Assembly (NCBI GenBank): GCA_950295325.1
Contig: OX485805.1
Span: forward strand, 41,440,758 to 41,504,757
Origin: Polytrichum commune
Taxonomy: Eukaryota > Streptophyta > Polytrichopsida > Polytrichales > Polytrichaceae
Direction of reading: 5' to 3'
DNA length: 64,000 nt
Part shown: in pieces, positions 1,444-34,534 of the stretch
Position numbering within the stretch: position 1 is the stretch's first letter
Layout of the letters: every line of letters begins with the position of its first letter
Notes under the pieces: model-generated
Told to the model about the DNA's origin: nothing
The model's database searches: none
What the model saw: only the letters and a program-made list of their open reading frames with translations
Made by a program: the position numbers and the translations under genes

Positions 1444-1559
1444 ATGCAATATCTCATGCAATATCTGATGAATTTGCCTTCATTTTTAGACAATCCAATA
1501 GATGCTCGCTCGAAGCTCCATACCATGGTCTCTAATGAGATTCCCAGCACCAAATCCAG

Positions 1560-2160
1560 GATTGAGGGACTTAGATTTCAACCGAAGAACAAGTCCAAGA
1601 TCTTCATTCCTCTATGTCGAATGGTTTGTCTTCCCGTGGTCCGTCCCTTCCTTAAGAATGATGTCCTTAAGTTGGCTTGGCATTTCCAGAAGAACGGTTA
1701 CATGGAAGGTAATGGTGTTTTCTATGTTGCCCTGGAGGACAATGAAGGCAAAACTTCAGACGTTTCCGCAGAGATCATTTCCACTTGGAGTCAGCATTGG
1801 GTGACAGTGAACAACGAATTTGAGGCCATGCTAACCGCCGATCCAACTCTCCAAGTCTTTTGTGGGAAGATGTTCCATGTTTGGGATGGCAACCACCGCA
1901 TCCAAACTTGGATGCCAATTATCAACAATGACCACCTGGATGACATTTCTTGGCATTATACGGTCGAGAGTATTATTCTCGTTGTGAATGGGGATGTTGT
2001 ATCCATGCTCACTGCCTTATACGAGGTCAACTGGTATGTTCTCATTGCAATCACATGCTCTCTTGATTTCATCTCATTTTTGTCATGGTACCTCATCTCT
2101 CATTTAATCTTGATTTTCTGCCACTCAGGAGAAATGAAAATTCACATGTGGTTGCAAACC
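1560..2160 (+). other. ParB/sulfiredoxin-like domain of copy 1
   Basis: The order is IPLCRMVCLP (beta strand plus proline), a helical stretch ending in GYMEG, then GKMFHVWDGNHRIQTW with the GNHR codons at 1888-1899, then hydrophobic strands ending in EVNW. ParB N-terminal domains show an IPL...L...P start, then a G-x-H/x-R box and an ENL-like helix. The equivalent in copy 2 is GKMFFVWEGNHRLSAW followed by DINW. The family assignment rests on motif spacing and is inference. Confidence 0.5.
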
Positions 2161-4046
2161 TTGTGCATCGGCTCTACCGCACTCAGAGTCTTGCCAAACA
2201 GCCATTGGAGTTCTTCAAGTCTTTGGTGTCTCAAGATGATGTTCAAGCTGCGGAGACAAAACAGAAGAATCCTAAAACCAAGACTTGGTTCACCCTTACA
2301 ATTGCATCGCTCACCTCCATACTCTACCAGGTTCAATTGTTTTCATACTCTTCCTATGGTTTCATTCCCACTTTTAACTTCCTCTATATTTTTGCATTGC
2401 TAATATACTAATTCCTTGCTTTTCAAATGTCTCAGCAAGAAATTGGAGTGGTTGCTGCATCTACAGAGCGGAAATTTTATGATCGATATCCAAACCCTGA
2501 GGACTGGACATCTCAACGTGTTGATGACATCGTTGGCAAGGCGGTTACACGTGCCAAGGTGCATTTCAAAAGTGAGTTGACAAAAATCTTACCAATTGCT
2601 GATCCTCAGAACACTCCTGCTTTTCTTGCCGAAGTGAAGACTCATTATGAGTGTCGTGATGACGGTGTTGAGATGAAGTTAGAGAAGTTGTGGATGTTGG
2701 CTGTGTCTGCCATGGATCCATCTATGAAGGTACTTTGGCTTGAGAGCTGGAATCAGCCTCCAAGTCTTTGGGTGCAACTGAAATTCCCCAAGCAAGGTTT
2801 CAACGATGACGCCTTTTACACTTGGTTGAATAAGGCAACATGGTGGGCTCAAGTATGTGATTCTCCACCTCTCCTCTTTGTTGAGTTCTCAAAAATTGTT
2901 TTTTTGCTTTTGAACTTTCATTGCTAGGCCATTGCAAATTTGTTATCTTCTTTGTTCATAACTCCTCTGTCGTGCTATGCAGTTGGCAGTGGAAGCACAA
3001 AAACTTCTCGATGGTGTCCTACGTGATCAAAAGGCCACCATCAACTATCAACCTGATGGCCGGGATCCAATTCCAACCCTTTTTTATTATATTGAGCAGA
3101 TTCGCATATCATTATGGGACACGGCATTCTTCCGCGAATTCGCAGTGGAGAAATGAGTGAACAAGAACAACACTATCGACAAGCAGTACTTGTTCAAGCC
3201 AGCATTACACCGTGTCCTGTCCTCTTCTCCTCCAAGGCTATCTCTAGATCCCCTCCCTTCTTTGTTAATTTCTTGGAGAGAGATAGTGAGGATTTCATGC
3301 TCACTAAGGGAATCATAAAATCATGGGATTCTGTGCACTGGGAGCGATGTGGGTGGTATCTTGACTGCCCAGCTTCGAAGGCCCCTTCGTTTGACATTGT
3401 TCTTCGAGACTCCATCCAACCACCTTCCCTTCGAACTGGGACTCCCTCGGATACCGTCGACACTCCGCTTGAGGTGCTTGCCAGTCAACGGCCGGCCTCA
3501 AAATCCAAGAGGCAACTGAGGCAGAAGAAGGCTCCCGTTTCTGATCAGGTTCAGAGGGCCACTTCCCCGGTTGGGACGCCGCCCCTCTTCTCTGCAGCAG
3601 ATGCTGCACTTGCTTCAAGTGCATCTAGACTTCCTGCATCACCACCGAGTCCTTCAGTTATTCTAGCAGAGCCAATTACGAAGCGCCAGAAAGTTGATGT
3701 CCCGGAGTCCAGTACTGCCACCACGTTCTTGTCTCCCCCTAAGTGTCATCCCATGAAGGTGAAGGCTGTTGCATTGTCAACCGCATATACTTCTCAGCAA
3801 CTTCTTGTGAATGATTCTTTTGTTCGTATTGTGGAGGAGAAGACAATCACTGGAAAGTTCAGCACCAATTACGAAGACATTGTTTACTTTCTGAACAAGG
3901 TCTCCCCCTAATTTTCCAATTCACTACAGTATTGCTTTCATTTTTTCAATGTCATGTTGTAGGTTGGTAGTTGGATTTTTGTGGCATTTTTTCAATGTCA
4001 AGTTCTAGCTCGGAACTCCCAGGACTTACATTCCTCTCCGGTTTAG

Positions 4047-6030
4047 GTTGGCACTGGACGCCACTTCTACTTTGATGGCAAACTCATTCAGAAACCTACA
4101 GTGGACTTGCTTATTGCTGAGTACCCTGACGGGCAGAGAGTTCCTGGAGTTTTTAATCCCCCGTCTCAGATCCCACCTTGGAATGAGTACTCCGATACTT
4201 TTCTTAAAGTGACCATGGGATTTGCATATTCCTACTTGCATGACGATGGAGCCTTCATTCTTTTCTACCCCGACAGTCCCATGGTTCGCAAGGAGATTTC
4301 ATCATTTTTCAAGAATTACGAGATGAAGGTTCTTGACGAGTGGACCATCATCAATTATTTGCACCTTGCCAATCCCCTCGTGTCAGCCAAAAATGTTTGT
4401 TTCTTGTCCTTCTCTCTTTCCTACTATTTTAACTAAGTTTTTTCTTCTCTTCCGATTTTTCTTCTTAAGACTTAGCTGATTATTTGATTTACCTTTGCAG
4501 ACTTTGAAGGTCAAGGCTATTCTTATAGTCAGATCTGTCCCTACTTCTGAGGCTAGGCAGCCAAAGATCCTCACGATCACTCCAGACCCTTCAGTCCCTC
4601 AGGTGGACTTAGCGTGTGATGATGTCCTCTTCAATCCTGTCACATCCGAGACCCAGCTGATTCGTAAAAGCGATGGTTCGCCATGGCGAGGCCCGAAGGA
4701 GAAATCGGATGTTCTCATGAAGCTCTTTGTGCATGGATTATCTCCTCCAGATGGTATTGTCGCCGACCTAACCGCTTCCATAGGTACCTCATACCCACTT
4801 CTCCTTCCTTTTTATTTTTAATTTTCATACCATGTTTGTCGCGCACCTCTCCATGAGGAGTGCCCGAAACACCATGGGCACAAGGGGGACCCCGGAGTGA
4901 CACCCGGGACTTGTGGCGCCGTTGGTGAGAGGGCCCAAGTGATCCTAGTGTGGGTGAGGGCCCCGGGCGTTGGGAACGCCTCCCACCCACGGAGACTAGG
5001 AGGCACAAGGGTAAGGCCATGAGCTATGCGTAGCTCATGGCGTGGTGATTCTAGAATGCTCAAGAACACCTCAATCGGAGGTGTGAGCTAGCAGTTATGG
5101 CCATTTGAGTGGGGCGCTGTCCCGGGACAGCGCCTGGTACAGCAGTGCCTGGGCGTGATTCCCGGGACTGCCAAGGTTCAAAGAGGCATAACGTCCTCAT
5201 AACTTGCCCGAATGGGGTAAGTGAGGAGTGCATCGGCATCTACGTGAAGCGTAGATGAAGATGGAGTGGTCAAGTGTTAGCATCAGACATCATACAAGGA
5301 AGTTATGATGGTCTGAAGCTGTGGGGGCTTCTAGGCCCAGCGGCTAAGGGAAAATGTCCACTTGGCCCCAACTCTTGGTAGAGAGACAAGAGGTTGGTTG
5401 ACAGTGGGGTAGGGGCCCCGCGTAGAGTCCTAGAGGCTTATATGGGTGAGGTGGTGTGGCCTCACCCACCCGAGGCCGAACGGCACGGCCTCCATTGGCA
5501 TTGGCCTAATGTGAGGCCATAGTTGCCTAGTATGGTTCGGGTTGTTGTAGTGTTGCTCCGGCAACGCGATGATCAACATAAGATTGGACTTCCATGGATG
5601 GAAGTCCACATCTAAGGATTGGTTACCGATTGAAGGGGTGAGTCCCGAAAGCAAAGTAGGAGGGTTGGTTCCCCTCCTATGAACTATAAGGTCCGGGGTG
5701 AGAGGAGCTAACCATTAGCATGGCGGTATGCGAAGGGTTAGCACTCGTAACCTTTGCTAGGAAATGAAAATTGCCAAGATGGTCAAGGGGGACTAGCAAG
5801 GGTTGCGACAATGTTTCATGTCCTAATTTATCCCATTTCTCCAGGAGCTACTATTCGCGCAGCCCGTGCATGTAATCGCCACATTCTGGTTTTAGAGAAC
5901 GACTCTATGCTCTTTTCTGAAGTCCTTGAACCCTTGGCAGTTCCACCTCCAAATGCTTCGACTTTCTCTACTGCGGGCGACCTGAGTGACGATGACGAGG
6001 CCATTCCAGATGCCCCTTTGCACGATATAT
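4047..6030 (+). other. Beta-class amino-methyltransferase-like domain of copy 1
   Basis: Motif order matches permuted (beta-class) N4/N6 DNA methyltransferases. Motif IV comes first (EYPD at codons 4119-4130 instead of DPPY), then the strands of motifs V-VIII. Next is the motif X helix with E-K near its start, SPPDGIV, and finally the motif I loop DLTASIGAT, followed by a helix and ILVLEND, which ends in the acidic residue expected to contact SAM ribose. The intron 4784-5844 cuts motif I after the first base of a Gly codon. Cofactor binding is possible; the changed tetrad argues against ordinary base methylation. Confidence 0.6.
4837..5810 (+). mobile_element. Solo LTR (974 bp) in the motif-I intron of copy 1
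   Basis: The sequence starts TGTCGCGCACC and ends GGGTTGCGACA and is flanked by a perfect 5-bp target duplication, ATGTT (4832-4836 and 5811-5815). It is 974 bp, the same length as each LTR of the full element at 10059-17343, but in reverse orientation and with scattered substitutions, so it is an older insertion. No internal region remains, consistent with LTR-LTR recombination. It lies between intact splice sites (donor 4784, acceptor ending 5844) and does not break an exon. Confidence 0.93.
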
Positions 6031-6367
6031 GTGAGTAAGTCCACGCCTTCGTTGGTTGATATTGTTTTCTATTTATCTCTTACTTGTAATCCATCCTTTG
6101 TCCATCTCTAAATCTTGCTCTGAACATGGCAGTTTAACAAATTCAGGGAGACCGTTACGAACTCCACCTTCAACTTGGTACTTTCCATCGCCGCCCCCAA
6201 GTCCTCGTGGCTTACCTGTATATGCTGAAGCCATGGCCTTGGCATATGCCCATGGTAGCTCTGGGAATTCGACATCCTTCTTCACTCCTAAGAATCATGT
6301 TGACCCTCGAGTTCTACGCTACTTTGATTTAGAAGCAGTGTCGAGCCCTCTATGTAGCAGTGATTGA

Positions 6368-6579
6368 AGTAATGGCGACCTTCTTAATCATACAAAGTAT
6401 CTTGAGCTCCCAGGAATTGTCATGGATATAGGCCCCTTTAATAAAAATTGTGTTCTAAAACTTTCAAGTTTTCAGTGAAAACCGCGGTCATAGAGCTCAA
6501 AAGTTCTCAAATTCTTGCTCTAGTCCTGATTATAGGGCTTTATTTTCAATACAAAATTTCTAAAAACTGTAGAAGTTAT
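6368..6579. other. 3' region between copy 1 and the MULE-like gene
   Basis: AT-rich sequence after the copy 1 stop codon, presumably its 3' untranslated region. It ends at the GCTCACC array where the tail-to-tail MULE-like gene also ends. No other feature seen. Confidence 0.4.
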
Positions 6580-6614
6580 CGCTCACCGCTCACCGCTCAC
6601 TGCTCACCGCTCAC
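6580..6614. repeat. Short (CGCTCAC)n tandem repeat
   Basis: Five units of about 7 bp, GCTCACC / GCTCACT, immediately after the copy 1 3' region and overlapping the stop codon of the minus-strand transposase. A related GCTC-rich run, CCGCTCTCCGCTCTACGCTC, lies at 35155-35195 downstream of copy 2 in the same orientation. This could mark an element end or a breakpoint. Confidence 0.6.
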
Positions 6615-8008
6615 AGAATAGCATTCCTCGGATGTGGGATACCGTGGCGGGCCATGACGTGGTTGAGGTTCTGCCAGAAGAGCACTTGCGCATCCTTATC
6701 CTCCGATTGGAAATCACAACATGAAATGGTCATAACCCGTTGATAAGTCCCATCGTAGACATGAGCGGCCATGGTGGTCCACCCTTTGACCCGCTTGACG
6801 TGATCGGACATCATCCACGCGTTCTCGAGGTCCCCACCCGGTTGCATCCGATGAACCAAATCCACTCCACTTCCAAGACCAACCTCGGACATCTTGAAAA
6901 CGAACACCTTGTCAGCATCGTCACCTTGTCCTGGGAATTGGTTCCTTTGGACGTAGGTCCAATTGCTAACGCCTCTAAGCTTAGCGATGCCATCCATAAC
7001 ACCGAACCTCCGCAAAAATTTGAAAGAGGTAACCTTAGATCGAAGGTTTGGGGAATTCAACTCTCTACAGCTCTCAAACACAGGTTCGAGCTCTGTTAAG
7101 GAGAGGAGACGGTGTTTCTCACTATTTTCAGAAAGGAGGAACTCACCAACAATGTCCTTGCTGGCTTCAAGGACGATCTTGCTGTGCGTGGCCTGAGGCG
7201 TACGCTCAACGTGCTCCTCGAGAAGTGCATTGATACACTTCCGACTGTCTCGGCAGTCTCCAACCTTGACTGGATGTTGATGAGTACCGATATGAATGCA
7301 GGCTCTTTGGGAGGACTCCTTCCCATGGACGTAGAAGATTTTTGCATCGCATAGTGCAATGCATTTGGGAGGCTGTTTGCAGATCCTGCACACAAGAGTA
7401 GATCCGGATGGCACAATGCCAGAGAGAGGGAAAGGCTCTTTAGTGAACCCATCAAATTCCATGTCGTTGACCTCAGAGAGACGATGGGCGCGTTGAAGGT
7501 AATCACAACTCGGGTTTTGGCATTGTAGATGGCCAACACAGGTAGAGGAACGAAATGCAAGGCCAACGTCGTTTGTAATGTTGGTGGTTTGAGTCTTCGT
7601 CCAAACATGGCCATCATATTGCTTGTCCATGCCGTCCATGGACTTGGCCCTGGATTGAGATGATGAGACTTCGGGTGCAGGGAGGACAAATAACTGGGTA
7701 CCATCAAAACGAGGGGGGAGGTGATTAACCTCTAGGATTTTGATTTTATCGTAATCTAGTTTCTTGAGAACGCTCTTACTACCGGGTATAGAACAAAGAC
7801 GATGAAGGCAGTGAACAATAGGTGGAAGAGGTTTGGACGTAGACGGTACGGAAGGAGAAAAAGGCACAGAGCGAGAAGGAGAAGGTGTTACATAGGAAGA
7901 AGAGGGAAACAAAGGAGGGGAATCATGAACATCAGCCTTCCTCACAGATACATCTTCAGTCGAAGAATCAGACAAGTCTACAACGTTGTCTACGTCAGGC
8001 TCGGTCTT
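6611..8008 (-). pseudogene. MULE-like DDE transposase, C-terminal segment (split by CACTA)
   Basis: About 465 codons. After a Ser/Pro-rich stretch there is a Cys/His zinc-binding region (CVGHLQCQNPSC, then CRICKQPPKCIALC, then ACIHIGTHQHPV) resembling WRKY-GCM1-type fingers of MULE transposases. A DDE fold start follows: MMSDHVKRVKGWTTMAAHVY, then VMTISCCDFQSEDKDAQ, which fits the first catalytic Asp and the strand-helix after it. The protein stops at 6611, just after this, so the second Asp and the Glu are absent: the gene is 3'-truncated. Its upstream part lies at 25590-25967 on the far side of the CACTA element, in the same reading frame. The superfamily call is inference from these motifs. 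Confidence 0.65.
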
Positions 8009-8037
8009 CACTACAACAGATTGGGTATTTTGTGACT
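8009..8037 (+). repeat. Left terminal inverted repeat of CACTA
   Basis: 29 bp, perfect inverse of 25561-25589, beginning CACTACAACAG. Preceded by target copy CTT. Confidence 0.95.
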
Positions 8038-8760
8038 GAAATTTATGACTGCCTTAAGTCATAAAATCCCAAAATATGACTGACGAGGCTCCGGATGAGG
8101 ATGACGCGCGCGGTGACTGGGTCTAGTCATTACCGACGAGTCGCTTCGGACATGAGTCATATGAATATATACGGTTGTGGAGGCGTATAAAAGGACAGTT
8201 TCTACGATCCCCACTGCACGTGGGGCATACCTTGACTAGCCTTGGAGTCAGTGCCCTTTTTTGACCTGCCCGGGCAGAAAAAATACCAAACCGACGTGGA
8301 ATGTGACTCCATGTGATCATGTTCTCTGCTGACGTGTAATATGACTTGCATGCGTCATAATTTTGCCGACGTGGCAGGCCACGTGGAATGTGACTGCTAG
8401 TTTTTTGACTGCTTGTAGTCATGTTTTTTGGGGCGTTACTCACATTTTTTGCGGGGATGACATTGTTATATAACGTTCTGTAGTCATATTCTTAGCAACA
8501 TGTTCTGCACAATATGACATGATGGAGTGATATTCGCGTAGATGGAGAGTCACATTGCGTAGTTCTTTGTGCGTTGTGATAACTGTATTGAGTTAGATTC
8601 GTATTACTTGTAATTTTGAATGTCAGTCACATTTCGTGCCACATCCCAAGTAATGATGACACATTCAAGTCATGCGCTACATGACTGAGCCAAGTAAGAA
8701 ATTGAGCACACAAATTGAGTACATAAATTTCAATAACTTGAACGACTTTATGTAGTCCAT
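8038..8760. repeat. Left subterminal palindrome region of CACTA
   Basis: Repeated motifs ATGAC / GTCAT, often as short palindromes such as ATGACTGCCTTAAGTCAT at about 8045 and ATGACTACAAGCAGTCA-type pairs around 8390-8420. Subterminal repeats of CACTA elements are the usual TNPA-type binding sites. No coding sequence is supported here. Confidence 0.75.
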
Positions 8761-8827
8761 GTCTCCAAGCATATCCAAATGTGTTCATCTTTCCTACATG
8801 ACCCCTAAATGCGTAAACTACCGAAAT

Positions 8828-9208
8828 CTAAGTGGCTTGTTGAGGTTCCAGCGGGATAGCCTTCAGTGCTTCCACTGGCCACTTGGTGATGGACTTCAGT
8901 GCATCGCCCAGACGCAACATCGGAGGATCGTCGTCGTTGTTGCCCTCGTACAGCAACACGGACTCTGCTCCTGGCTCAATCGAGGACACGCAAACTGATA
9001 CGTTGCCCTCCTCAATGAGGCGCCCGTGGAGTGAACCTCCTGCAAGGCTCACGATGATGCCTTGCGCCACTACGTTCGCCTTGGCCTTGTTCTCATCGTC
9101 CAGGTCAAACAATGCGACATTGGACCCCGTGGCCAACGGCAAGGGTGCGTCCTCCACCATCGCATTAGGCGTCTCCGACAATACGGCGGTGACCTCTTCT
9201 GCTTGTGT
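8828..9208 (-). pseudogene. TNPA-like gene, last exon (DUF8039-like domain)
   Basis: Acceptor at about 9209 (CTGCTGCAG), stop TAG at 8828-8830. The exon has DAPLPLATGSNVALFDLD, then VVAQGIIVSLAGGSLHGR, a strand with VSVCVSSIEPGA, and DALKSITKWPVEAL. This pattern (something made 'less or more' in a beta-rich domain, ending in a W-P motif) is what I know from the DUF8039 domain found in plant transposon-derived proteins. The exon itself is open. It is the 3' end of the minus-strand CACTA gene whose earlier exons run back to 20.6 kb. Confidence 0.6.
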
Positions 9209-9661
9209 CTGCAGCAGAAAACGTAATTATCAACAATCAAAACAATCCGCGTGGAGTTACTGGAGCTTCAATACTCAATATATGACCTCACACTAGGCCA
9301 TGATTGCATAATATGATAGGACATACTCATATACCGCACCGTAGTCATCAGATATGACAACAATGAGTAATATAATTGCGACCTATAACTGAACATAGTC
9401 ATATGACTGGACACAGTCATATAACCCATGACTAGCCATAGTCATGTGACTGAACATAGTCATATTGCCTATGGCTGACCATAGTCATATGACTGGACAT
9501 AGTCATATTAGAATGACCACAAAAAGTAACACATTCGCCTAAGGTCCTCATATTGCTTCGTGGAGTGACATACCTATGCGGACATGTGTTATCAGCATTT
9601 TCCTTGTTTACGATTGGAGTGAGAACCAAATAGAAACAAAAAATATCCAAGAACAGCTTAC
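9209..9661. repeat. Intron packed with ATGAC/GTCAT palindromes
   Basis: Last intron of the minus-strand CACTA gene. From about 9300 to 9530 it holds repeated units such as CATATGACTGGACACAGTCATAT, i.e. ATGACT-N-AGTCAT palindromes, alternating with AT-rich spacers. The same motif fills the element's termini. Confidence 0.7.
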
Positions 9662-10058
9662 CTGTGTCGATGAACCTACCAGGTTCGCAGGTACCGACGC
9701 TAGATGGACCTCCTTGGTCAGATACGCCAAGCAATATTCGATGTTGGATTGCTTGCGGGCCAATCCTTCGAATGGCCCGCAAATTCTGCCCAGGAAGTCA
9801 TCGTTGGGGTTTAGGGGATCCCAGCGCGGAAAGTTTAGGACATTTGAGGGGGGGGAACGCGCCGTCGCCGTTGTATCCCAATCGATTTGGAGACACCGTG
9901 TTGAGCCGTGCGTGGGGTCCGGAATCATATCAAATAGATTGCGGAGGTCTCTTATTGGGTTCTGGAGGGGGTAAGTCCTCCCCCACAGAAAGCTCCATTG
10001 AGTTGTCGTTCCCGATGCAAGAAATGCGCCTACAACCTCTAGTACGTTCTGCTCTAAG
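9662..10058 (-). pseudogene. TNPA-like gene, exon segment 3' of the LTR insertion
   Basis: Donor GTAAGC lies at 9661 downward. The frame starts LEQNVLEVVGAFLASG directly at the LTR border and continues to EVHLASVPANLVGSSTQ. It is the second half of an exon whose first half ends at 17344. Removing the LTR element with one 5-bp target copy keeps the frame open across the joint. Function unknown beyond membership of the CACTA second gene. Confidence 0.6.
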
Positions 10059-11032
10059 TGTCGCAACCCTTGCTAGCCCCCCCTTGACAATCTTGCCAAT
10101 TTTCAATTCTAGCAAAGGTTACGAGCGCTAACCATTCGCATTCCGCCATGCTAATGGTTAGCTCCTCCTACCCCGGACCTTATAGTTCATAGGAGGGAAC
10201 CAACCCTCCTACTTTGCTTTCGGGACTCACCCCTTAATCGGTAACCCATTCCTAGATGTGGACTTCCATCCATGGAAGTCCCATCTTATGTTGATCATCG
10301 CGTTGCCGGAGCAACACTACAACAACCCGAACCATACTAGGCAACTATGGCCTCACAATGGGCCAATGCCCATGGAGGCCTTGCCGTTCGGCCTCGGGTG
10401 GGTGAGGCCACACCACCTCACCCATATAAGCCTCTAGGACTCTACGCGGGGCCCCTACCCCACCGTCAACCAACCTCTTGTCTCTCCACCAAGAGTTGGG
10501 GCCAAGTGGACACTTTCCTTTAGCCGCTGGGCCTAGAAGCCCCCGGCAGCTTCAGACCATCATAACTTCCTTGTATGATGTCTGATACTAACAAGCGACC
10601 ACTCCATCTTCATCTACGCTTCACGTAGATGCCGATGGACTCCTCACTTGCCCCATTCGGGCAAGTCTTGAGGAAGTTATGCCTGTTTGAACCTTGGCAG
10701 TCCCGGGAATCACTCCCAGGCACTGCTGTACCAGGGCGCTGTCCCGGGACAGCGCCCCACTCAAATGGCCATAACTCCTAGCTCACACCTCCGCTTGAGG
10801 TGATCTTGAGCATTCTAGAATCACCACGCCATGAGCTACGCATAGCTCATGGCCTTACCCTCATGCCTCCTAGTCTCCGTGGGTGGGAGGCGTTCCCAAC
10901 GCCCGGGGCCCTCACCCACACTAGGATCACTTGGGCCCTCTCACCAACGGCGCCACAAGTCCCGGGTGTCACTCCGGGGTCCCCCTTGTGCCCATGGTGT
11001 TTCGGGCACTCCTCATGGAGAGGTGCGCGACA
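10059..11032 (-). repeat. 3' LTR of the chromovirus-type element
   Basis: 974 bp with TG...CA ends. The reading frames inside it on + (for example at 10800-11138 and 10849-11316) are chance frames repeated in every LTR copy and are not genes. Confidence 0.93.
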
Positions 11033-11052
11033 CTCACCCCCACCAAACGGAG
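11033..11052 (-). promoter_or_regulatory. Polypurine tract
   Basis: On the minus strand CCGTTTGGTGGGGGTGAG directly abuts the 3' LTR, as expected for the plus-strand primer of an LTR retrotransposon. Confidence 0.75.
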
Positions 11053-11920
11053 TCGATGCCCTCATCGACTATACTCGTAGTCGGCACACCAATTCTCAAG
11101 TTGCCATCCTCTATGGTGCGGCATTGTGTTTACCTTAGGGCGCGACCCCCACAATGCATCTTCAAATTTGGCATAGCCCCAAAGGTGTCGTTCCTAGGTG
11201 GTCCGTTAGCGACCTTGGATCTTTCATCCAAGGACCTAACCTACACTAGACCCACCTACTTTGGGACTCACTTGGGTTGCCCCTCCTTTGAGGCCTCCCC
11301 CGTTAGGCTCCACTAGCCTAACATGACACATCTAGGCGAGACCTCAACGCTTCCACTACGTTGTCTCGGTTGCAACTCCGAGATGGCTTTCCATTGTTAA
11401 GCCACGCCTCGATCGCACGGGGGTGATGCCAAGTCCCGCCCGACTCGGTTCCCACTTTGCTCTTTCGAGACATGGGTTCATGACTCCCATGCGCCAACTC
11501 TCGTTAGCTCGCGGGTAGCACTTTTATGAGCACGCGCCATCACCTTGTCCCCGCCCGGACAAGCCCGCGGCTAAGAAGTTTCTTGGTTTTATACAAGGCC
11601 CGTCCAAGCCATGGCCCCCAATTACTCGGCTTACCCAACCTAGTTTGGCATATCTATTCCCCCTCTTCCATTAACCAAGCATAAGTGCAAGACTAGGACC
11701 TCATCTCATACTTTTCTCTTTGCACCACTAAAGTTTGGACTTTATTCCCTCAAGCCAAAGAACAAGTTCATGTTGTGGAGTAATTAACCTCGAAGCTAAG
11801 TGTGCTACTAGCGTCTCTCCCCCACTAAAGGAGATTGATGTCCTCATCAATGCCTATGCTTCATTTTATTGGAATCCTTAGCCTTAGTTTCTTCAAAGTG
11901 CTTCACCAATTCATTGGTGT
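11053..11920. other. 3' non-coding region of the LTR element
   Basis: About 870 bp between the chromodomain remnant and the polypurine tract. It is relatively rich in CCC and CTC on +. I recognise no coding domain. Confidence 0.5.
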
Positions 11921-12308
11921 TCACCATGTCTCTTGCCGCCACCCAAGCGGTTTCTTTCTCATGGTATCTTCACCATTTCACCAAGTACTCCTTTGTACAT
12001 TTTCTTTCATTTTCACTTGGACTTCCTACACTTGAGGATGCCCTCCTACCTCATGTTCCAAATGACCTCCACAAGGTCGGGACGTGGCCTAATCACTTGC
12101 TTGTGATCGGGCCACAAGGTGTCGTCCTAAAATGACTTTCGTAATGAGACATGAAATGTTGGATGCACTTTGATCTCCGGCGGTAATTCCAACTTATACA
12201 TGTCCTTGAACACTTGTTCCACCATGGAAAACGAAGCTCCAATTTTGGACATGAACTTTTGGAGTAAGGCCTTTGGGCAAGGTGAGGTTGTCCACATTCA
12301 ACAACACC
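11921..12308 (-). pseudogene. Integrase C-terminus and chromodomain remnant
   Basis: Minus-strand reading from about 12240 gives VFKDMYKLELPPEIKVHPTF, the end of a Ty3/gypsy integrase. Near 11925-12000 is KEYLVKW, a stop codon, then RYHEKETAWVAARDM, a chromodomain core. The in-frame TGA after KEYLVKW and others upstream destroy the frame. The chromodomain assigns the element to the chromovirus branch. Confidence 0.7.
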
Positions 12309-16367: not shown

Positions 16368-16369
16368 AG

Positions 16370-23763: not shown

Positions 23764-24053
23764 TGAGTTCACATTTTAGTAGAAGAACCTTAAATGCACC
23801 ACCTCTCATAGAACAACAGTGCAGACCATACGAACTATAACAAAACACATCTTTTGTGACAAAAAAATATGACTGCAGTCAGTCATATTTTGGGATTTAT
23901 GACTGAGTACAATCACAAAATGTAGTCGTAAAATATGCATTTCGTTGTAGTTATCGCGACACAGTACGACTACTGTTGTATGCAAATATGACTGCCCTTA
24001 GTGATTTCAGCAAGTCACGGGTAATGATGTGGTGGGTTGTATCCAAAATGCAG
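23764..24053. repeat. TNP2 intron with ATGAC/GTCAT motifs
   Basis: 290 bp, GTGAGT to AAAATGCAG. Between 23866 and 24010 ATGACTGCAGTCAGTCATA and related units occur. Non-coding. Confidence 0.7.
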
Positions 24054-24933
24054 GAAACACGAGGATGACATGTCACGGCGGGAATGTGAGCGGCACGAAT
24101 ACAGGCGCAAGAAGCGGAAGGCGCGGGTAATGTACCCAGCGGAGCTGCGCGACGAGGATTTCCACATTTGGTTTCCAAAAGCAGTGATGCGCACCATAGA
24201 AGAAGGCACGGAGGAGGTACATGAAGACGTTAGGGCCTTGATGTTACCTCCATCGGATGCAGCGAAGTCGTATCGATCCATGTATGCGTTTGGAAACCAC
24301 ATCCGTGTCCGAAGCGCACAGGCGCAATTGACAACGATGGACTCTGGGGTGGCCGCAACATTTCGACAATTATGTCGCTCGGGCCTGAAGGACACAAATC
24401 CAAAGGCAGCGGAGTTGGAGTATGTGGGTTGGGTGGAGGAAATCCTATCTGTGGACTATGGATTCTTCGAGGTGGTGGTCCTCTATTGCAATTGGGTCGT
24501 TGCAAACATTAAGGGAGATGGGGCGACGATGAAGCGCGACGACTATGGTTTCACCAGTGTAAACTTTGACAGATTGATCCCGTTCTCAGCACAATCATTT
24601 GCATTTCCTCTCCACATCGAACAAGTTTTTTTTGCACCTGACGTAGCGAAGTGTGGATGGGAAGTTGTTTTGCGCAAGGAACCGAGAGGGGTTCGGGTAT
24701 TCTCCAAACAACAAAGAACGGATGAAGTACAGTGCATAGCACTAGGTAGGACTTCTGATTTTCCCGGATTACAAGTGACGGCGTTTCAGGACGATATCGT
24801 ACCGAGAACACCCATATTGGGCGATGCAGTGGAAGTAGGGCCAGGAGTGGTTGCCAAGGCACTAGAATGTCTAGAGGGACCGGATGACGCATCGGTAGAT
24901 GACTCCGAGCACTGCGTATCGGACGGTGATTGA
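24054..24933 (+). CDS. TNP2 transposase, exon 3 (DUF4216)
   Basis: Joins exon 2 in frame across the split Arg codon. It begins with a highly basic stretch (RRECERHEYRRKKRKARV). Near residues 140-230 of this exon's product it shows FEVVVLYCNWV, DDYGFTSVNFDRLIPFSAQS and IEQVFFAPDVAKCGWEVVLR, the DUF4216 pattern that is typically the last domain of plant TNP2 proteins. It ends with an acidic tail and a TGA at 24931-24933. No breaks. Confidence 0.92.
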
Positions 24934-25299
24934 CTTCCCGTCCGTGCAAGAAGTTGTATAAATGAAACTTAGGTTTTTTATATATTTAATTTCAATTATA
25001 TACATGTTCAATTAGTCTCTTGGCAATAGTAAAAATCAAATTTCCTCCCCAATTTCCCCCCTATACTCCCTAAAACATCAATCAAGTAATTATTCAATAA
25101 ATAAACATGGGCCATTCCCAATTCTCATTGCCGTTCATACTATAACACACAAAGTACTTAATTTTGACCAATATCTGTCATTATTAAATAAATACTCCAC
25201 ACCATAATACTAGATAATGAGTCATGGGGCAAAAACACAAGAGGCCCATCTAGGGCAGCCTGAATTATCAAGGGCTGCCCAAAAGAAGGAAAAAAATGG
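24934..25299. other. 3' region of TNP2
   Basis: AT-rich; probable untranslated and polyadenylation region. No clear motif cluster. Confidence 0.45.
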
Positions 25300-25560
25300 T
25301 CCTAGTCAGAATGTGACTGAAGAATATGACTCGCAGAAAAATATGACTGCCACACATGACTGGGCGTCCACCATAGACGTTCCCCGTCGTTCCCTATAAA
25401 GGCACTCGCCGTTCCCATACGCCATATACAGTACATTTGCCGAATACGACACAAAAATATGACTGCGAGTCATATTTTTGAATTTCGTACCCGACAAAGG
25501 TCGAGGCCTGCCAAAATGTGACTGCATGTAGTCACCAGTCATCCCCAGTCATATTTCCCT
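25300..25560. repeat. Right subterminal palindrome region of CACTA
   Basis: ATGTGACTGAAGAATATGAC, ATATGACTGCGAGTCATAT and several further ATGAC/GTCAT units up to the terminal inverted repeat. Shorter than the left subterminal region. Confidence 0.75.
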
Positions 25561-25589
25561 AGTCACAAAATACCCAATCTGTTGTAGTG
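25561..25589 (-). repeat. Right terminal inverted repeat of CACTA
   Basis: 29 bp, perfect inverse of 8009-8037, followed by target copy CTT. Confidence 0.95.
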
Positions 25590-25967
25590 CTTGACACTTA
25601 TTACCGGAGGTGTGCTAAAGTCAGCAGTGGAAGATCGAAGAGGAGCAAGGAGTTATGTTGACTCTTCCATCTGAGAAGCTGGCCAGCCAACAACACTATA
25701 CTTTCCAGCGCGAAGCTCCCACACATTGCCATTGTCAGTTAGCTTGGAGGACTCATGGAAGGAATGAACGAGCAATCCAGTATCATCGAAGATCTCACGG
25801 TCTACCCATACTGTATCAGGTTGAAGAGAGAACCTAAGGCAAAGATGAAGCTCCGAGACTACAGCAATACCCTGTGCATCAATGGGGAAGAGAATAGGAA
25901 CACCGATGCCATGGGAACGAATTTCGGCCATCTCAGAGATGGGAGGAAGAATTGACGATGAAGCCAT
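25590..25967 (-). pseudogene. MULE-like transposase gene, N-terminal segment
   Basis: Start chosen at ATG 25967 (MASSSILPPISEMAEI). It continues with TVWVDREIFDDTGLLVHSF and NVWELRAGKYSVVGW, which I do not recognise as a named domain. A TAA at 25653-25655 interrupts the frame; after it the same frame runs on to the CACTA border at 25590 and continues at 8005 in the left segment without a shift. The TAA could be a nonsense mutation or fall in an unrecognised intron. Confidence 0.55.
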
Positions 25968-26283
25968 GAATGAAGAGGACGCAAACAAAAAGGACCAAAG
26001 ATTTAAATGTCCATGTGAAAGATAAAGGAGATGACGATGAAGGTATAAAAATACACCCATGATAATCTGGAAGAGACAAAATTGTCAGACCCCCAAAAAA
26101 GGATACCCTTAATGAAAAAGACGGTTGTCAGACAGTGAAGCGCGCCTCGCAAGGGGAGGTCATGCAATTATATATAGAGAAGAAAACGAGTGGTCATTGT
26201 CTTTCCAATGTGAGAGTTTGATGTGGTGAGGTTGTGGAGAGGGAATAGAACGAGTTGGTGTGAATTGCGGGAGGGTTGAACAC
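25968..26283. promoter_or_regulatory. Divergent gap between MULE-like gene and ParB/methyltransferase-like copy 2
   Basis: About 300 bp between two start codons pointing away from each other. TATATATAG occurs at 26171-26179. If the two genes belong to one element, this would be a shared promoter region; that is inference. Confidence 0.35.
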
Positions 26284-29200
26284 ATGAAGGAAATAGGAAA
26301 TTCACAACCTTTGACAACGGAACCATCACAGAATAAGAAGAGGAGGTGAACATCTACACATTACACTAATAGGAAGAGGAAGACGGTGAGGACACAAAAG
26401 ATACAGACACCAAAGGCGCCAATCAAAGGCCGAGGGACACCCGAGGATTTAAGGAAGAACATCAAGACTAGGCGTAGACCAGCTTTGAGGTTAGATTGTG
26501 AGATTCCGCCATTTCATTTATCACCGATTTTGGAACAGGCGGACGGAAGTAACGCCCATACAATGACAGACGATGAGGAGTTGGGAAGTGACCACATACA
26601 CGAGGAAACACCCCAAGAGACGGAATCTACAAGTGTTGTAAGCAATCTTCAAATTCCCATGAATTCAGTTAATTGAGAAGAGCAGTAAAATAGTAGAACA
26701 CAATGACAAGTGATTCAACAATGTCGTTTTGTATGATTTGTGAAAATTGTTATGGACATTGGTTTATCTCGAATATAGGAGGTTGGGAAGAGTGGGGAGA
26801 GTGGAAATAGCTCCGACGAGGAAGAAGATGCGGAGTTAGAACAACAAGCACAAAACGCGTCGGTAGAGCTAGGAACGGAGGGAGCAACTCCATCGGGACA
26901 ATTCCATGTTCAAAGAAGATCAGAAATGAGGGAGTCCAAGGGAAAAACGGCCAAGGATGAAAGAAAAATATTTTCCGTGGGAGAAGGGGATGGTGAGGCC
27001 GAAACCCTAAATGGGGGGGTCGGAGGTACTACATCTAGGGTTCTCCGAAGTAAGGCGGCCACACCACAAAGGGCCGCCAACCGAGGGAGAGGGCGAAACC
27101 AAGCTAGGAAGGAGGGAAAGAAGTTGGAGAAGAGCACTTTGGAGAAGGCCATGGCCACGGAGGAGGGGAACTCGGGTGCTAGTGGTGATGGCGTCCACCA
27201 AGTTTTGGTATGGTTTGAGAACTCAAAATCAGATTTTGTTTGAAGTTTGTGGGTTGTGGATGGGATTCGGGTGATTCCAGGTGGCCATATATGGTGGTAT
27301 CGGCCGAGAGGGAGGAGCCCTCGGATCCGAGGCCTCATGTCTATGATACTAGGATTTCATATTTTGCTTGACTTTGTGGGAGGAGGTTGAGTTTCGGGCG
27401 ATTTCAGGGTGGCCATTGTGGGTGGTTTCGGCCGAGAGGGAGGAGCCCTCGGATCCGAGGCCTCACGGCCATGATACTTAGATTTCAGATTTTGATTGAC
27501 TTTGTGGGATGAGGTTGGGTTCGGGTGATTCCAGGGTGGCCAAATGAGATGGTTTCAGCCCTAGAGCGAGGAGCCCTCGGATCCGAGGCCTCACGGCCAT
27601 GATACTTAGATTTCAGATTTTGCTTGACTTTGTGGGATGAGGTTGGGTTCGGGTGATTCCAGGGTGGCCATATTCGGTGGTTTCGGCCCTAGAGGGAGGA
27701 GCCCTCGGATCCGAGGCCTCATGGCCATGATACTTAGATTTCTGATTTTGCTTGACTTTGTGGGATTTTGTTAAGTTCATGTGATTCAAGGGTGGCCAAA
27801 TGAGGTGGTTTCGGCCCTAGAGGGAGGAGCCCTCGAATCCGAGGCCTCATGGCAATGATACTTAGATTTCAGATTTTTGCTTGACTTTCTGGGATTTTGT
27901 TAAGTTGATGTGATTACTGGGTGGCCATATTAGTTGGTTTCGGCCGAGAGGGAGGAGCCCTCGGATCCGAGGCCTCACGGCCATGATACTTAGATTTCAG
28001 ATTTTGCTTGACTTTGTGGGATGAGATTTGGTTCGGGTGATTCCAAGATGGCCATATTAGGTGGTTTCGGCCCTAGAGGGAGGAGCCCTCGGATCCGAGG
28101 CCTCACTCCCATGATACTTAGATTTCAGATTTTGCTTGACTTTGTGGGATGAGGTTGGGTTCGGGTGATTCCAGGGTGGCCAAATGAGGTGGTTTCGGCC
28201 CTAGAGGGAGGAGCCCTCGGATCCGAGGCCTCACGCCCATGGTACTTAGATTTCAGATTTTGCTTGACTTGGTGGGATGAGGTTGGGTTCGGGTGATTCC
28301 AAGGTGGCCAAATGAGGTGGTTTCGGCCCTAGCGGGAGGAGCCCTCGGATCCGAGGCCTCACGGCCATGATACTTAGATTTCAGATTTTGCTTGACTTTG
28401 TGGGATGAGGTTGGGTTCGGGTGATTCGAGGGTGGCCAAATGAGGTGGTTTCGGCCCTAGAGGGAGGAGCCCTCGGATCTGAGGCCTCACGCCCATGATA
28501 CTTAGATTTCAGATTTTGCTTGACTTTGTGGGATGAGGTTGGGTTCGGTTGATTCCAGGGTGGCCAAATGAGGTGGTTTCGGCCCTAGCGGGAGGAGGCC
28601 TCGAATCCGAGGCCTCATGGCAATGATACTTAGATTTCAGATTTTTGCTTGACTTTCTGGGATTTTGTTAAGTTGATGTGATTACTGGGTGGCCATATTA
28701 ATTGGTTTCGGCCGAGAGGGAGGAGCCGTCGGATCCGAGGCCTCACGGCCATGATACTTAGATTTCAGATTTTGCTTGCCTTTGTGGGATGAGATTTGGT
28801 TCGGGTGATTCCAAGATGGCCATATTAGGTGGTTTCAGCCCTAGAGGGAGGAGCCGTCGGATCCGAGGCCTCACGGCCATGATACTTAGATTTCAGATTT
28901 TGCTTGACTTTGTGGGATGAGGTTGGGTTCAGGTGATTCCAGGGTGGCCAAATGAGGTGGATTCGGCCCTAGAGGGAGGAGCCCTCGGATCCGAGGGCTC
29001 ATGGCCATGATACTTAGATTTCAGATTTTGCTTGACTTTGTGGGATGAGGTTGGGTTCGGGTGATTCCAGGGTGGCCATATTAGGTGGTTTCGGCCCTAG
29101 AGGGAGGAGCCCTCGGATCCGAGCCCTCACGGCCATGATACTTAGATTCCAGATTTTGCTTGACTTTGTGGGATGAGGTTGGGTTCGGGTGATTCCAGAG

Positions 29201-32200
29201 TGGCCAAATGAGATGGTTTCGGCCCTAGAGGGAGGAGCCCTCGGATCCGAGGCCTCATGGCAATGATACTTAGATTTCAGATTTTTGCTTGACTTTCTGG
29301 GATTTTGTTAAGTTGATGTGATTACTGGGTGGCCATATTAATTGGTTTTGGCCGAGAGGGAGGAGCCCTCGGATCCGAGGCCTCACGGCCATGATACTTA
29401 GATTTCAGATTTTGCTTGAAATTGTGGGATGAGATTTGGTTCGGGTGATTCCAAGATGACCATATTAGGTGGTTTCGGCCCTAGAGGGAGGAGCCCTCGG
29501 ATCCGAGGCCTCACTCCCATGATACTTAGATTTCAGATTTTGCTTGACTTTGTGGGATGAGGTTGGGTTCAGGTGATTCCAGGGTGGCCAAATGAGGTGG
29601 TTTCGGCCCTAGAGGGAGGAGCCCTCGGATCCGAGGCCTCACGCCCATGGTACTTAGATTTCAGATTTTGCTTGACTTGGTGGGATGAGGTTGGGTTCGG
29701 GTGATTCCAAGGTGGCCAAATGAGGTGGTTTCGGCCCTAGCGGGAGGAGCCCTCGGATCCGAGGCCTCATGGCCATGATACTTAGATTCCAGATTTTGCT
29801 TGACTTTGTGGGATGAGGTTGGGTTCGGGTGATTCGAGGGTGGCCAAATGAGGTGGTTCGGCCCTAGAGGGAGGAGCCCTCGGATCCGAGACCTCACGGC
29901 CATGATACTCAGATTTCAAATTTTGCTTGACTTTGTGGGATTTTGTGAAGTTCATGTGATTACAGGGTGGCCAAATGAGGTGGTTTCGGCCGAGAGGGAG
30001 GAGGCCTCGGATCCGAGGCGTCATGGCAATGGTACTTAGATTTTAGATTTCTGCTTGACTTTGTTGGATTTTGTTAAGTTCATGTGATTACAGGGTGGCC
30101 AAATGAGGTGGTTTCGGCCCTAGAGGGAGGAGCCCTCGGATCCGAGGCCTCATGGCTTTGATACTAGGATTTCAGATTTTGCTTGACTTGGTGGGATGAG
30201 TTTGGGTTCGGGTGAATTCGAATCATTAATATGAATTCATCACTTTGAATTCAAATCATTTATTTTTGGTTGGGATTGTATTGGCCTTGCTAATATGCTT
30301 TCATGTTGGTAGGATTTCGACTTCTCTCTAGCTGGGCAGTCCCAACAAAATTCCGAAGAGGTCGTTCCACTGGCTTCTCCCGCGGCTGATGTGGATGCTG
30401 CCCAAGTTGTTCTAGGAAAGGTGATTATACTATTTACGCTTTTTGCAATTGTCTACATGTTTAGCCATCCCCCATTGGATCAACATATTATGAGTTCTTT
30501 CGTTCTAAACATGTTTGGTTTTTGTGTTTTTTTAAGGCTTCTTCACTTGGCCAAGATACGGTCATCGCAGTTGCCGACACGGATCCGGTTGTTAGTGAGC
30601 TCGAGCTTCGCAAAACACAAAAGGAGGATTCTAATGGTGTAATCCAACGCCTCCGGATTAAACCCATTGTAAAGTCCCGCTTTTTTATTCCTTTATGCCG
30701 CTTGCGATGCCTACCTCTTATCTGTCCAATCAGTGAGGTGGAGGTGCAGCGTCTAGAATGTGAATTTGTGATGGGGTACCGTGAGGGAGATCATGTACTG
30801 TATATGTCCTCGTTCAATGACGTTTCTGTGGACATGCCGGTCTCCCCTGATATTGTGTCCTCTTGGAGCCCTCTATGGCAAGAGACCAATGCTGAGTTCG
30901 AGGTCAAACTCAGAGATGGCCCAGATCTTGCACATCTATCTGGCAAGATGTTCTTTGTATGGGAAGGAAACCATCGACTCTCAGCATGGTGGAGGCACAT
31001 CAACAACAACCATGCCAATGAGAAGAGTTGGCATATCTCCGTGGATTGTATTGTGGTCGACCCCAGGGAATGCACGGGTGTCTTCCTCAATGCCATGAGC
31101 GACATTAATTGGTAAGCATTTTCCATTTGTTTTTTTATTTTTCTCGATCTTGTTATTCGACTTCCAACACATCTATTCTTCCAGGTCAACTGAGCATGAC
31201 CACGTGAAGGCAAGCATTCCTGCCAAGCTCCTTCGAATTCGTACGTTTGGAAGGTTGGACTTGTCGACATTCAAGGATCTCATTTCCCCGGCTGATTACA
31301 AAGCTTGCGAGAAATCGAAGGAGATTCGCCCTACTTGGTACAACCTCACCGCGGATGTCTTCGTGAAATTCCTCTACAAGGTATTCTAATGCATTCCCTC
31401 TTCCCCGTCTTCCAACCTTCTCAATTTCCATTCCGATTGTTTTTGCTTACAATGTCTTCCCTTGCAGAGAGACATTTCGGCTCAAGGAGACCTCGCTGTC
31501 AGGCAATATCGTGAAACCACACCCATTGCAGAGAGGAATGCCACTGATATTTGGAATGTCATGACCAAGGCCCAAGAGAGGACGATCAAGAGCATTCGGT
31601 CACGCACCTTTGAGAAATACATCTCCGTTGTTCACCCTGACAATGGAGATGACTTCTTTCACGAGGTATCATTTTTTTCGTGTTCCTAGTGCTCTTCGTA
31701 TTTTTTCAATAGCCAACTCTTCGAGAGTTTTTACTCATTTCACTCTTTTGGTTGTTTCAAGATTGACCGACACTTTAATGAGTTCCACTCGCCCGACATG
31801 ACAATTGAGAAGTTGCAAAAGATTGTCACGTGTCATGTTGAATCTTCATTCAAATCCAAGTGGCTTCATTGGTGGAACGCACCTCTTCAAGAGAGGTCGG
31901 ACAACAAGTTCCCCATCGATAAGCCCTTGAGGGAGAAAATTCTGGACGACTGGCTTCACAAGGTGTCCTTTTGGGCTCAGGTTCATACACCCCCTCCACC
32001 TCATTTTCTTTCACTTTTTTTTATTCTGCTTGTTCCATATCTAATCATCTCACTCTGTGCAGTTGGAGACAGAGGTCTCCATTGAAATTGATACCTTTCA
32101 AGAGAACCTCGGCGTCGACATTGATTGGGATGCATCCGAGACTATCTTGCGCCCTCGTGAGTATGTTGATCATTGGCGGATTGTCCTTTGGGATAGAGCC

Positions 32201-34534
32201 TTCAAACCTTATCTCGGCGATAACCCGGACATCGCCTTTGCCAAAGGTGATAACATCTCGGAGTTCGAGGAGGGGGCTCTCGCTATCAAGTGCGTTACAT
32301 ATCGGTAATGCATCTATCCTCCTCCTTTGCACTTCTCCCTCTTCATGGTTCTTGCTCCAACCCATGGTTTTCTTACTCTCTTGTTTTGTGTTGTAGTTAT
32401 ATCATGAGAGAGTTGGTTGCAAAGAATGCATTGGCATTATCTTCCTTGCCCGCCTACCTCTCGGACTGGGTGAACGTACTTTCTAGCCTTTGCGTATACA
32501 CGACCAAGCAAACAACCAAGTTTTCCAAGTCCCATTTGCAGGCTGCGGGATGGTACTTTGATTGTTCCGCAGGATTTGTCCCAGTGGAAGAGAAGCCTCT
32601 ATTTGATAGCCTTGTTAGTAGTGCTCCCGAGGACAACAATGTCACCTTTGAGGAGCCCGACATCATTGAAATTCCCCCTCCTCCGCCTAAGGTACCAAGG
32701 GGAAAGGGTAGAGCAAAGAAGACTGCCACTCAAGCCTCTTCCCAAGTTGTCACTCGGAGTGGTTCAAAGCCTCCCTTTGAGCCACCCACCCTTCCACACA
32801 GTCCATCTCTCGTTCCCTCGGTTCTTCCATCGGTTGCCCCCTCCGGTACTCCCTCGGCCTTTCGTCCACAATCTAATGCTACTCCTTCTCACAGTGGCAC
32901 TTCTCTTCTCTCCTTGCCTCGCAAGAGGAAGGCCGCCCTCTTGGATACGAGTGCCACCTCTTCGGAGTCGCCTACCACGCTTGCCCTCATCGAAAATGTG
33001 GACATGGTGCAACTCATGCTGGATTCTGACATTGCAGGAAGTCCCCTCCCGGCATATACGCGCATCCAAGAGTTCATTGCCAAGGTTTGTATGTTTTCCT
33101 TTGGAATTGATCATACTCCTTTTCGTTTGGATTGTTTTTTTTTCCTTCTTCATTTTTTCTCATTAATTTTTCCTTGCAGGCTGGGGCAGGTCGTTCCCGT
33201 GTGAACACCTCCTCGAATATTCACAACGGGCTCGATTTGATTTTCGCGGACATTCCCGAGAATTTGCCGGTGCCCAACATCTCCACCGAAGTTCATGTTT
33301 GGAACAAGCTCCACGAGTCATACTATGAATGTCTTTTTGCATTTGCAAAATCTAACCTATATGATCATGGTGTCGTTGTGCTTGCCCATTGTGCGAGTGC
33401 AAGTGTTTTTAGGCTTATTTTTTATTGGGCTCACACTTACGACTTTTACGTGGCCGAAGATTGGTTCGGGATGGCTGATTTGGACCTCCAAAACCCCGTG
33501 GTCCCCTCTGGAGTGGTAAGCAACTCTTTATCTTCCAACCCGCATTTGTTTTGCTTTTCATTTCACGAATTCAGTCTTATGAAATCGTATTCATTTTTTC
33601 AGACTCGGAAATTCAGTATCAAGGTTCTTGTTCGTGTTAACTCCGTTCTAAAAGTGCGACCGGAGGCCGCACAGGAGTATGGTTACCACCTCCAGCGTGA
33701 TGGCTGGTTGAATACCTTCACCGATGATAAGTGCCAGGCCATGCGCAGTGATGGGGTACCTTGGAGGGGTGCTCGCGAAAAGCATCACGTTTTTTTTTCT
33801 ATCATTTTCGCTACTCTCACCGACAAGAACGATATTATTATGGACTGGCAGTGTGGTGTAGATAAGCATTATCTTTCCGCATCGTCCTTACATTGAATTT
33901 TCCTTGATTTTTTTTACCCAAGTTACCATACTAACCTCCTACATGTCTTTGTTTTAGGTGGTTCGATTGTAGCATGTCGCTCCCTTGAGCGGCATATTGT
34001 GGCTCTTGAGAGTGACCCCGTCATTTTCAATGCACTCCTACTCCCTATGCGCGATCCCCAGCCTGCTCTAACTACTCGATCAGTTCCACCACCGTCTACA
34101 TCTATGTTTGATCCGCCTCAAAAGAAGACCAAAAGGGCATTCAGGTTCCTTTGTGCATAAGTTCGAATTTTTTTGTTTTTGCGTGTATGCCTTGATGTCA
34201 TTTACCCTTCCTCCTTTGTCATATTGTTTCTAATATTTTTGCTTTGGTGTTCTGAGACCCCACAGAGAACGCAATCCTTTGTCGACGCATGTTTTCGAGT
34301 CCTAAGGCCAAGTCCCCACTTTCTAATCGCGTCCTTACTGCGGACATGTTCTCAACGCCTTCCACGACGTTCGAGCTCCCTTGCTATGCGGCCGGGCTTG
34401 CCAATCTTTTAGCGGAAGCTCCGACTCCACCTCCTAGTCGCATCCGACCTTTCAACAAACTAGTAGAGGTTTATGTAGACATAGAGGCGGAGGAGGGCGA
34501 GGATAGTGATAGACAAGGTAGTCCTAGTTGTTGA
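26284..34534 (+). CDS. ParB-like / beta-class methyltransferase-like gene, copy 2 (largely intact)
   Basis: Exons by GT-AG and frame: about 26373-26637, 26779-27207, 30313-30420, 30537-31111, 31185-31380, 31468-31665, 31762-31980, 32063-32304, 32397-33084, 33180-33515, 33603-33855, 33958-34144, and a last exon in 34266-34534. Phases agree from 26373 to 34144 without an internal stop, about 1,200 codons. Order: basic/acidic disordered N-terminus; ParB-like domain; a Trp-rich helical region; an LQAAGWYFDC motif; a Ser/Pro linker with PRGKGRAKK; methyltransferase-like domain; tail with LPCYAAGLANLLAEA. Five intron positions coincide with copy 1 although the proteins are well diverged. Open points: the start (ATG 26284 is followed by an in-frame TGA at 26347), and the final exon, whose conserved frame is one base off my predicted join. 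Role unknown; nuclear DNA binding is plausible. Confidence 0.75.
27226..30213 (+). repeat. Minisatellite, about 128-bp period, 23 copies, in an intron of copy 2
   Basis: Each unit carries the 14-bp palindrome CCTCGGATCCGAGG within GGGAGGAGCCCTCGGATCCG, and TTTGCTTGACTTTGTGGGAT. The palindrome recurs 23 times from 27321 to 30138. A variant unit (GTTGATGTGATTACTGGGTG) appears at about 27906, 28672 and 29313, i.e. 6 and 5 units apart, showing block duplication. The array fills the intron between donor 27208 and acceptor 30312. Minus-strand frames through it are repeat artefacts. Confidence 0.95.
30537..31111 (+). other. ParB/sulfiredoxin-like domain exon of copy 2
   Basis: FFIPLCRLRCLPLICPISEV opens the domain, GKMFFVWEGNHRLSAWW is the GNHR box (codons 30966-30977), followed by KSWHISVDCIVVD strands and AMSDINW at the donor. 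The last Trp codon is split TG|G exactly as in copy 1. Confidence 0.55.
33180..34144 (+). other. Beta-class amino-methyltransferase-like domain of copy 2
   Basis: Motif IV position reads LDLIFADIPEN (DIPE at 33249-33260, compare DPPY). Then FAKSNLYDHGVVVLAHCAS, KFSIKVLVRVN, and the motif X region VPWRGAREKHHVFFSIIF. DKNDIIMDWQC follows, then across the intron GGSIVACRSLERHIVALESD, the motif I/II region. The intron 33856-33957 splits the glycine loop at the same codon and phase as in copy 1. Confidence 0.65.

Follow-up and report, generated by a model that had tools for sequence, protein, structure and literature searches.

The 64,000-nucleotide stretch of Polytrichum commune DNA analyzed here (the window; contig OX485805.1, positions 41,440,758 to 41,504,757, forward strand) holds two related genes, copy 1 and copy 2, which are the accessory (second) genes of two related DNA transposons, provisionally of Mutator type. 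The proposed layout places a transposase on one strand and the gene for an accessory protein of ~1050 amino acids on the other. The protein would run from a ParB/Srx-fold domain through a middle region, a GWY-DC region, and a disordered linker to a permuted beta-class methyltransferase fold. Between the two genes lie arrays of symmetric (dyad) sites that differ by family. We tentatively favor, by analogy, the view that the accessory protein would read its own element in a sequence-specific manner and so protect it from silencing or regulate it.

Transposon context

Positions 1–35207 of the window are mainly one nest of three transposons. The right part of the copy-1 element occupies 1–6629 (+ strand). 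The whole element measures 16,863 bp, its left end lies 10,233 bp to the left of the window, its terminal inverted repeats (TIRs) match at 33 of 40 bp, and its target duplication reads GGATGTAGGA / GGATGTGGGA. It was inserted within the transposase gene of the copy-2 element, which takes up 6630–35207 and, with its nested insertions, spans C3:41427479-41475964. This second element begins with GGACGACACTTGTATGTGAGCG at C3:41427479, preceded by the ten bases ACCTATATAG, and the same ten bases follow directly (35208–35217) after its right TIR ends at 35207. Its TIRs match at 24 of 30 bp (counted by eye). The target duplications are 10 bp long in both elements, with identity at 10/10 bases for the copy-2 element and 9/10 for the copy-1 element. 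We aligned ten relatives of copy 2 (a to j) with 10 kb on either side; nine of the ten copies showed 96.6–99.0% identity to copy a in the main match. All 10 share the right terminus GCTCACATACTTGAGTTTCCC (35187–35207, + strand; nine exact, one with a single mismatch), and the flanks diverge past it. TIRs, target duplications, and a common right terminus show that the system is transposon-borne, one of the origins proposed in an earlier note on this DNA. Because duplications of 8–11 bp are described as the rule for Mutator-like elements (PMC6446971), we provisionally file both elements there.

In each element, the transposase gene lies on the strand opposite to the accessory gene. The copy-2 element retains a transposase piece at 6630–8008 (− strand), 91.7% identical to element J, with a ratio of non-synonymous to synonymous substitution rates (dN/dS) of 0.28 over 458 codons. 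It continues at 25590–26809, which includes the 5′ part of the transposase (− strand) and is 81% identical to J. The copy-1 and copy-2 types of transposase share 69%, 46%, and 43% identity across three blocks, and both end in a CxC...CxH SWIM-like finger recognized by eye. Transposases at L040 3930-5833 (−) and L027 1083-3383 (−) have no Pfam transposase match although their elements are multi-copy.

Copy number points the same way. Searches of the moss's own 408-Mb genome gave 31 matches for exon 1 of copy 1, at least 40 for exon 1 of copy 2 (of 200 candidates, 40 were scored), and at least 250 for the methyltransferase-like part (150 scored out of 1843 candidates). What the earlier note had called a two-locus family thus has many further copies. 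These counts rule out a domesticated two-copy gene, and the proposed domestication is contradicted by copy number together with the transposon context. That the copies form a family of host genes, with a ParB-like role in DNA modification and repeats merely around them, is very improbable. Such an account could draw on the open frame and purifying selection described below, but it is already contradicted by the position of the gene between TIRs and target duplications and by its many near-identical copies, which share one right end.

Accessory genes

The gene models of both copies are hand-rebuilt exon chains with GT-AG introns. Copy 2 (30537–34534, + strand) has ten exons, at 30537–31111, 31185–31380, 31468–31665, 31762–31980, 32063–32304, 32397–33084, 33180–33515, 33603–33855, 33958–34144, and 34264–34534. 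They form a single open frame of 1054 amino acids plus stop, the position of the start codon being provisional. Copy 1 (1444–6367, + strand; exons 1444–2033, 2129–2330, 2436–2852, 2983–3899, 4047–4394, 4501–4783, 5845–~6027, and 6147–6367) is broken by an in-frame stop at 3154 and, compared with its 97% relative K (C3:16428872-16446871), by a frame-breaking 19-bp deletion. K itself has an open frame along the same exon chain. Subfamily copies a, b, d, f, g, h, and i were also projected onto copy 2; the remaining three of the ten (c, e, and j) were excluded for insertions or a deletion. Two of the seven had no stop, one had one stop, two had two, and two were frame-shifted; the last intron projected poorly.

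The motif layout described in the earlier note is present in the sequence: the GNHR codons at 1888–1899 and 30966–30977, the IPL block, GWYLDC or GWYFDC, the proline/serine-rich linker, and a C-terminal order of motif IV-like, VIII-like, X-like (PWRG..EK), and I-like blocks. Copies 1 and 2 are 32% identical in their N halves (460 and 467 amino acids) and about 29–30% identical in their C halves (594 and 588 amino acids). Between copy 2 and two members of its 81% subfamily, dN/dS was 0.17–0.18 over 960 codons. By part, it was 0.10–0.11 in the ParB-like domain, 0.11 in the middle region, 0.27 in GWY-DC, 0.31 in the linker, and 0.17 and 0.27–0.28 in the two methyltransferase-like parts. Purifying selection on the accessory gene is therefore strongly supported at the sequence level. 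Chance open frames are ruled out because the copies share 32% (N) and 29% (C) identity and dN/dS is this low, and the frame of copy 2 is open.

ParB-like domain

The ParB-like exon covers 30537–31111 in copy 2 and, by alignment with it, 1444–2033 in copy 1 (both + strand). For copy 2, a good structure model and fold matches bear out the ParB-like domain of the earlier note, and a ParB/Srx fold in the accessory protein is strongly supported by modeling. One fold match is a “DNA methylase” of phage Vincenzo (BFVD rank 3, E 1.5e-3). Folded as a single sequence, the exon reached a predicted local distance difference test (pLDDT) value of 35.6. A PDB profile search with the N half returned a single match, a ubiquitin hydrolase at E 0.98, and the best PHROGs hit (E 0.014, one of four members) was to a family without known function.

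The full-length protein search found one match, a predicted protein of the fern Adiantum nelumboides (P0001, L7F22_000284) in which a Ty3-type gag domain is joined to a ParB-like N half; it is either a gene-model artifact or a chimera of two transposons. Pattern-based scans of viral contigs, made with the ParB exon and the methyltransferase part, and of prokaryote genomes, made with the ParB exon alone, found no confirmed relative. We accordingly rejected a source in viruses or prokaryotes recognizable from sequence in those scans, and the earlier suggestion of horizontal acquisition was not borne out.

Methyltransferase-like half

The methyltransferase-like exons lie at 4047–6027 in copy 1 (motif IV-like AEYP, X, and I) and at 33180–34144 in copy 2 (motif IV-like ADIP, X, and I), both on the + strand, and were assigned by motif reading and hhalign. 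Alignment with hhalign to beta-class methyltransferases scored 49.8 vs a shuffle maximum of 25.3. The Pfam N6_N4_Mtase match of the C half of copy 1 (E 0.0091) stayed below the cut-off, and a Pfam score of 18.5 bits likewise fell short of its cut-off of 26.7. An NCBIfam scan gave no match, and none of 709 candidates in a protein search with the methyltransferase part reached E <= 1. The permuted beta-class fold that the earlier note had named thus has profile support only.

Beta-class N6/N4 methyltransferases carry the catalytic motif IV [DNS]PP[YFW]. At this position, EYP or DIP was read in 4/4 sequences and the expected motif in none, families of 57–66% identity not being among the four. Searched as a degenerate DNA pattern, D-L-x-[IF]-A-E-Y-P occurred at 63 places vs 0 in the reversed control, 55 of them within the methyltransferase matches listed. 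Among the 94 listed matches that start at query residues 1–4, the pattern was found in 16 of 19 at >=86% identity, 39 of 55 at <57%, and 0 of 20 at 57–66%. The D-P-P counterpart occurred at one place, outside every methyltransferase match listed.

An active enzyme, whose ParB-like part would target N6-adenine or N4-cytosine methylation to the element so that the mark protects or activates it, would fit several of these observations. The closest profile and PDB sequence neighbors of this half are N6/N4 enzymes, the motif X- and I-like blocks are its best-conserved part, and ParB-methylase fusions are reported from bacteria (PMC5512222). However, the replaced motif IV and the 63 EYP places against a single D-P-P place make this explanation improbable, on the evidence of families outside the range of 57–66% identity, where none of 20 matches fits the EYP pattern. 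The change in motif IV persists, with several codon spellings, in families with as little as 46% identity, a pattern that suggests a conserved pseudoenzyme and not decay. The earlier note had left open DNA modification or DNA reading; reading is favored over modification because both window families carry a substitute for motif IV that is retained in many copies.

Palindrome arrays

The DNA between transposase and accessory gene is full of tandem repeats. In the window, 128-bp repeats (23.3 units) fill 27229–30214 and include 16 exact occurrences of the palindrome CCTCGGATCCGAGG, from 27319 to 30134. Repeat units range from 96 to 307 bp in element J and from 96 to 475 bp in element i, and one palindrome is carried throughout: among palindromes >=12 bp long, it makes up 28 of 30 in J, 48 of 50 in element i, and 18 of 22 in the window. 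Conservation within J holds near 2 bits per position across the 22 bp GAGGCCTCGGATCCGAGGCCTC and drops to about 1 in the flanks. The palindrome core lies upstream of the gene in 18/18 fetched copy-2-family loci and was absent from the 18 kb of K and from 8/8 copy-1-family loci (L029-L036, which include the centre of K). Genome-wide, it occurred at 2434 places vs 0 in the reversed control, and of the first 50 places, the ones listed, 11 adjoin a known copy-2-family locus.

The copy-1 family has a dyad of its own. In K 5900-9900, GCCGGTGCCGGC, whose arms are inverted repeats, was the single 12-mer found in at least three different contexts. A 17-bp pattern, CCCCRGCCGGTGCCGGC, had 35 places in the genome vs 0 in the control. 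Of the 23 copy-1-family loci of >=95% identity, 11 account for all 35, at distances of 1139–4529 bp upstream of exon 1. That each family has dyad sites of its own between transposase and accessory gene, predicted as GAGGCCTCGGATCCGAGGCCTC and CCCCAGCCGGTGCCGGC, is therefore strongly supported, and a symmetric-site array beside the gene in each family suggests that the protein reads its own element's DNA.

Two other uses of the arrays were weighed. The protein and arrays might serve transposition, by aiding synapsis, by selecting targets, or by nicking as a ParB-like nuclease, as accessory genes of other two-gene elements do. Joint selection on both genes (dN/dS as given above) is in keeping with such a helper, and nicking activity has been reported for ParB-like domains (PMC5512222). 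By contrast, the arrays are internal, between the genes and not at the element ends, and core site number varies from 5 to 47 among copies a to j, so we consider a helper rather unlikely. Alternatively, the accessory protein might act otherwise and leave the arrays to host factors or the transposase as promoter or enhancer repeats, or the arrays might simply have spread by recombination. Binding by the protein is something we infer, palindromes can be unstable, and the J array holds a second conserved 12-mer. Against this, the dyads at the corresponding position differ between two families, and the different-context search in K gave the dyad alone, which leaves unbound arrays doubtful.

Several results weigh against our reading of a transposon-borne protein with its own binding sites. 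Sites and gene are co-inherited on one repeat, so finding them together does not independently demonstrate binding. Selective conservation of the palindrome cannot be seen in the window's array or in element i, both of which are too uniform. For conservation of neighbors among frequent 6-mers, GGATCC ranked 1 of 25 in J but, in element i, whose array looks younger, 28 of 112. The context search in J placed the 12-mer TTGCTCTCGGCC (five contexts, 9 places) above parts of the palindrome (three contexts). The other 39 listed palindrome places had no listed gene match, the exon 1 listing holding the best 40 of 200. On the protein side, neither element's transposase matched a Pfam transposase or SWIM model, Pfam scans of both genes and four alignment members gave no ParB family match, Foldseek against PDB gave no match at E <= 0.001 for the ParB-like exon, and the copy-2 type alone scored 24.8 in hhalign, not above shuffles. 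As a separate observation, TTGCTCTCGGCC, found in the L027 repeats of element J, may be another conserved site.

The self-reading explanation that we tentatively prefer would work as follows. The ParB-like domain and middle part would bind the dyad array of their own element, probably in dimeric form given the symmetry of the sites. The methyltransferase-like half, as a pseudoenzyme, would sense or shield DNA rather than methylate it. Once occupied, the array could hold the promoter region in an active or unmethylated state, much as VANC acts on VANDAL elements, or it could control the element's expression. A more specific version is unlikely as it stands: a ParB-parS-like plant transposon system, in which a ParB-fold clamp with a methyltransferase-fold reader would load on its own palindromic array, spread, and block or reverse silencing, each family having its own protein-site pair.

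Other features of the window

The third transposon of the nest is a 17.6-kb CACTA element (8009–25589) within the transposase gene of the copy-2 element, with TIRs (CACTACAACAGATTGGGTATTTTGTGACT), the duplication CTT, Transposase_21, and DUF4218. It contains two copies of a ~970-bp repeat (10059–11035 and 16370–17345), identical over the 300 bp compared. A copy of this repeated element also lies in a copy-1 intron (4837–5808). It is absent in relative K, where the flanking matches overlap by 9 bp at the junction, and further copies occur in J; it is probably a non-autonomous Mutator-like element. At L037 1437-7151 (+), a long open Ty3/gypsy-like polyprotein frame (by eye) adjoins the left part of J and seemingly interrupts J's left end. 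The remainder of the window, 35218–64000, is mostly AT-rich at the level of the open-frame list.

Comparison with known systems

The means by which transposons evade silencing in plants are still being worked out, and Arabidopsis VANC is the described example of sequence-specific self-protection. The moss protein would be a structurally different candidate, placed in a large element superfamily (at least 250 methyltransferase-like matches in one genome), with a ParB-fold protein beside symmetric site arrays in a eukaryotic nuclear genome. The predicted sites of the two families could be swapped and are directly testable. Among two-gene Mutator elements, maize MuDR carries mudrA and mudrB; we know of no ParB or methyltransferase fold in mudrB. 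In titles and abstract openings, no ParB-like domain was described in a plant or other eukaryotic transposon, a check that did not extend to a plant-domain paper with four mentions of ParB (PMC1182354).

Bacterial fusions such as Bce_0392 likewise join a ParB-like domain and a methylase in one protein (PMC5512222), and the phage Vincenzo protein may do so, both parts being read from its “DNA methylase” name and the fold match. The moss genes differ in their replaced motif IV, long middle region, many introns, and transposon setting, and the viral and prokaryote scans above gave no sequence-level relative of them. Fungal DNA transposons with TET/JBP dioxygenases also carry an accessory gene of DNA-modification type (PMC12730594). 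Their enzyme class is different, and the part of that source available to us describes no self-targeting array.

Another likeness is with VANDAL elements, multi-gene plant transposons with an accessory gene, whose family-specific short motifs are amplified in arrays within the elements' own non-coding tandem repeats and differ between related families (PMC5735166). By contrast, the VANC21 motif YAGTATTAY is not palindromic (PMC5735166), the moss protein has ParB and methyltransferase-like domains, and anti-silencing is here an analogy. Palindromic arrays, on which the protein might load, recall bacterial ParB-parS and its ParB-fold CTPases, but the moss protein has no Pfam ParB match and belongs to a eukaryotic nuclear transposon. 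Overall, the system resembles VANC/VANDAL in its logic and ParB-parS in its parts.
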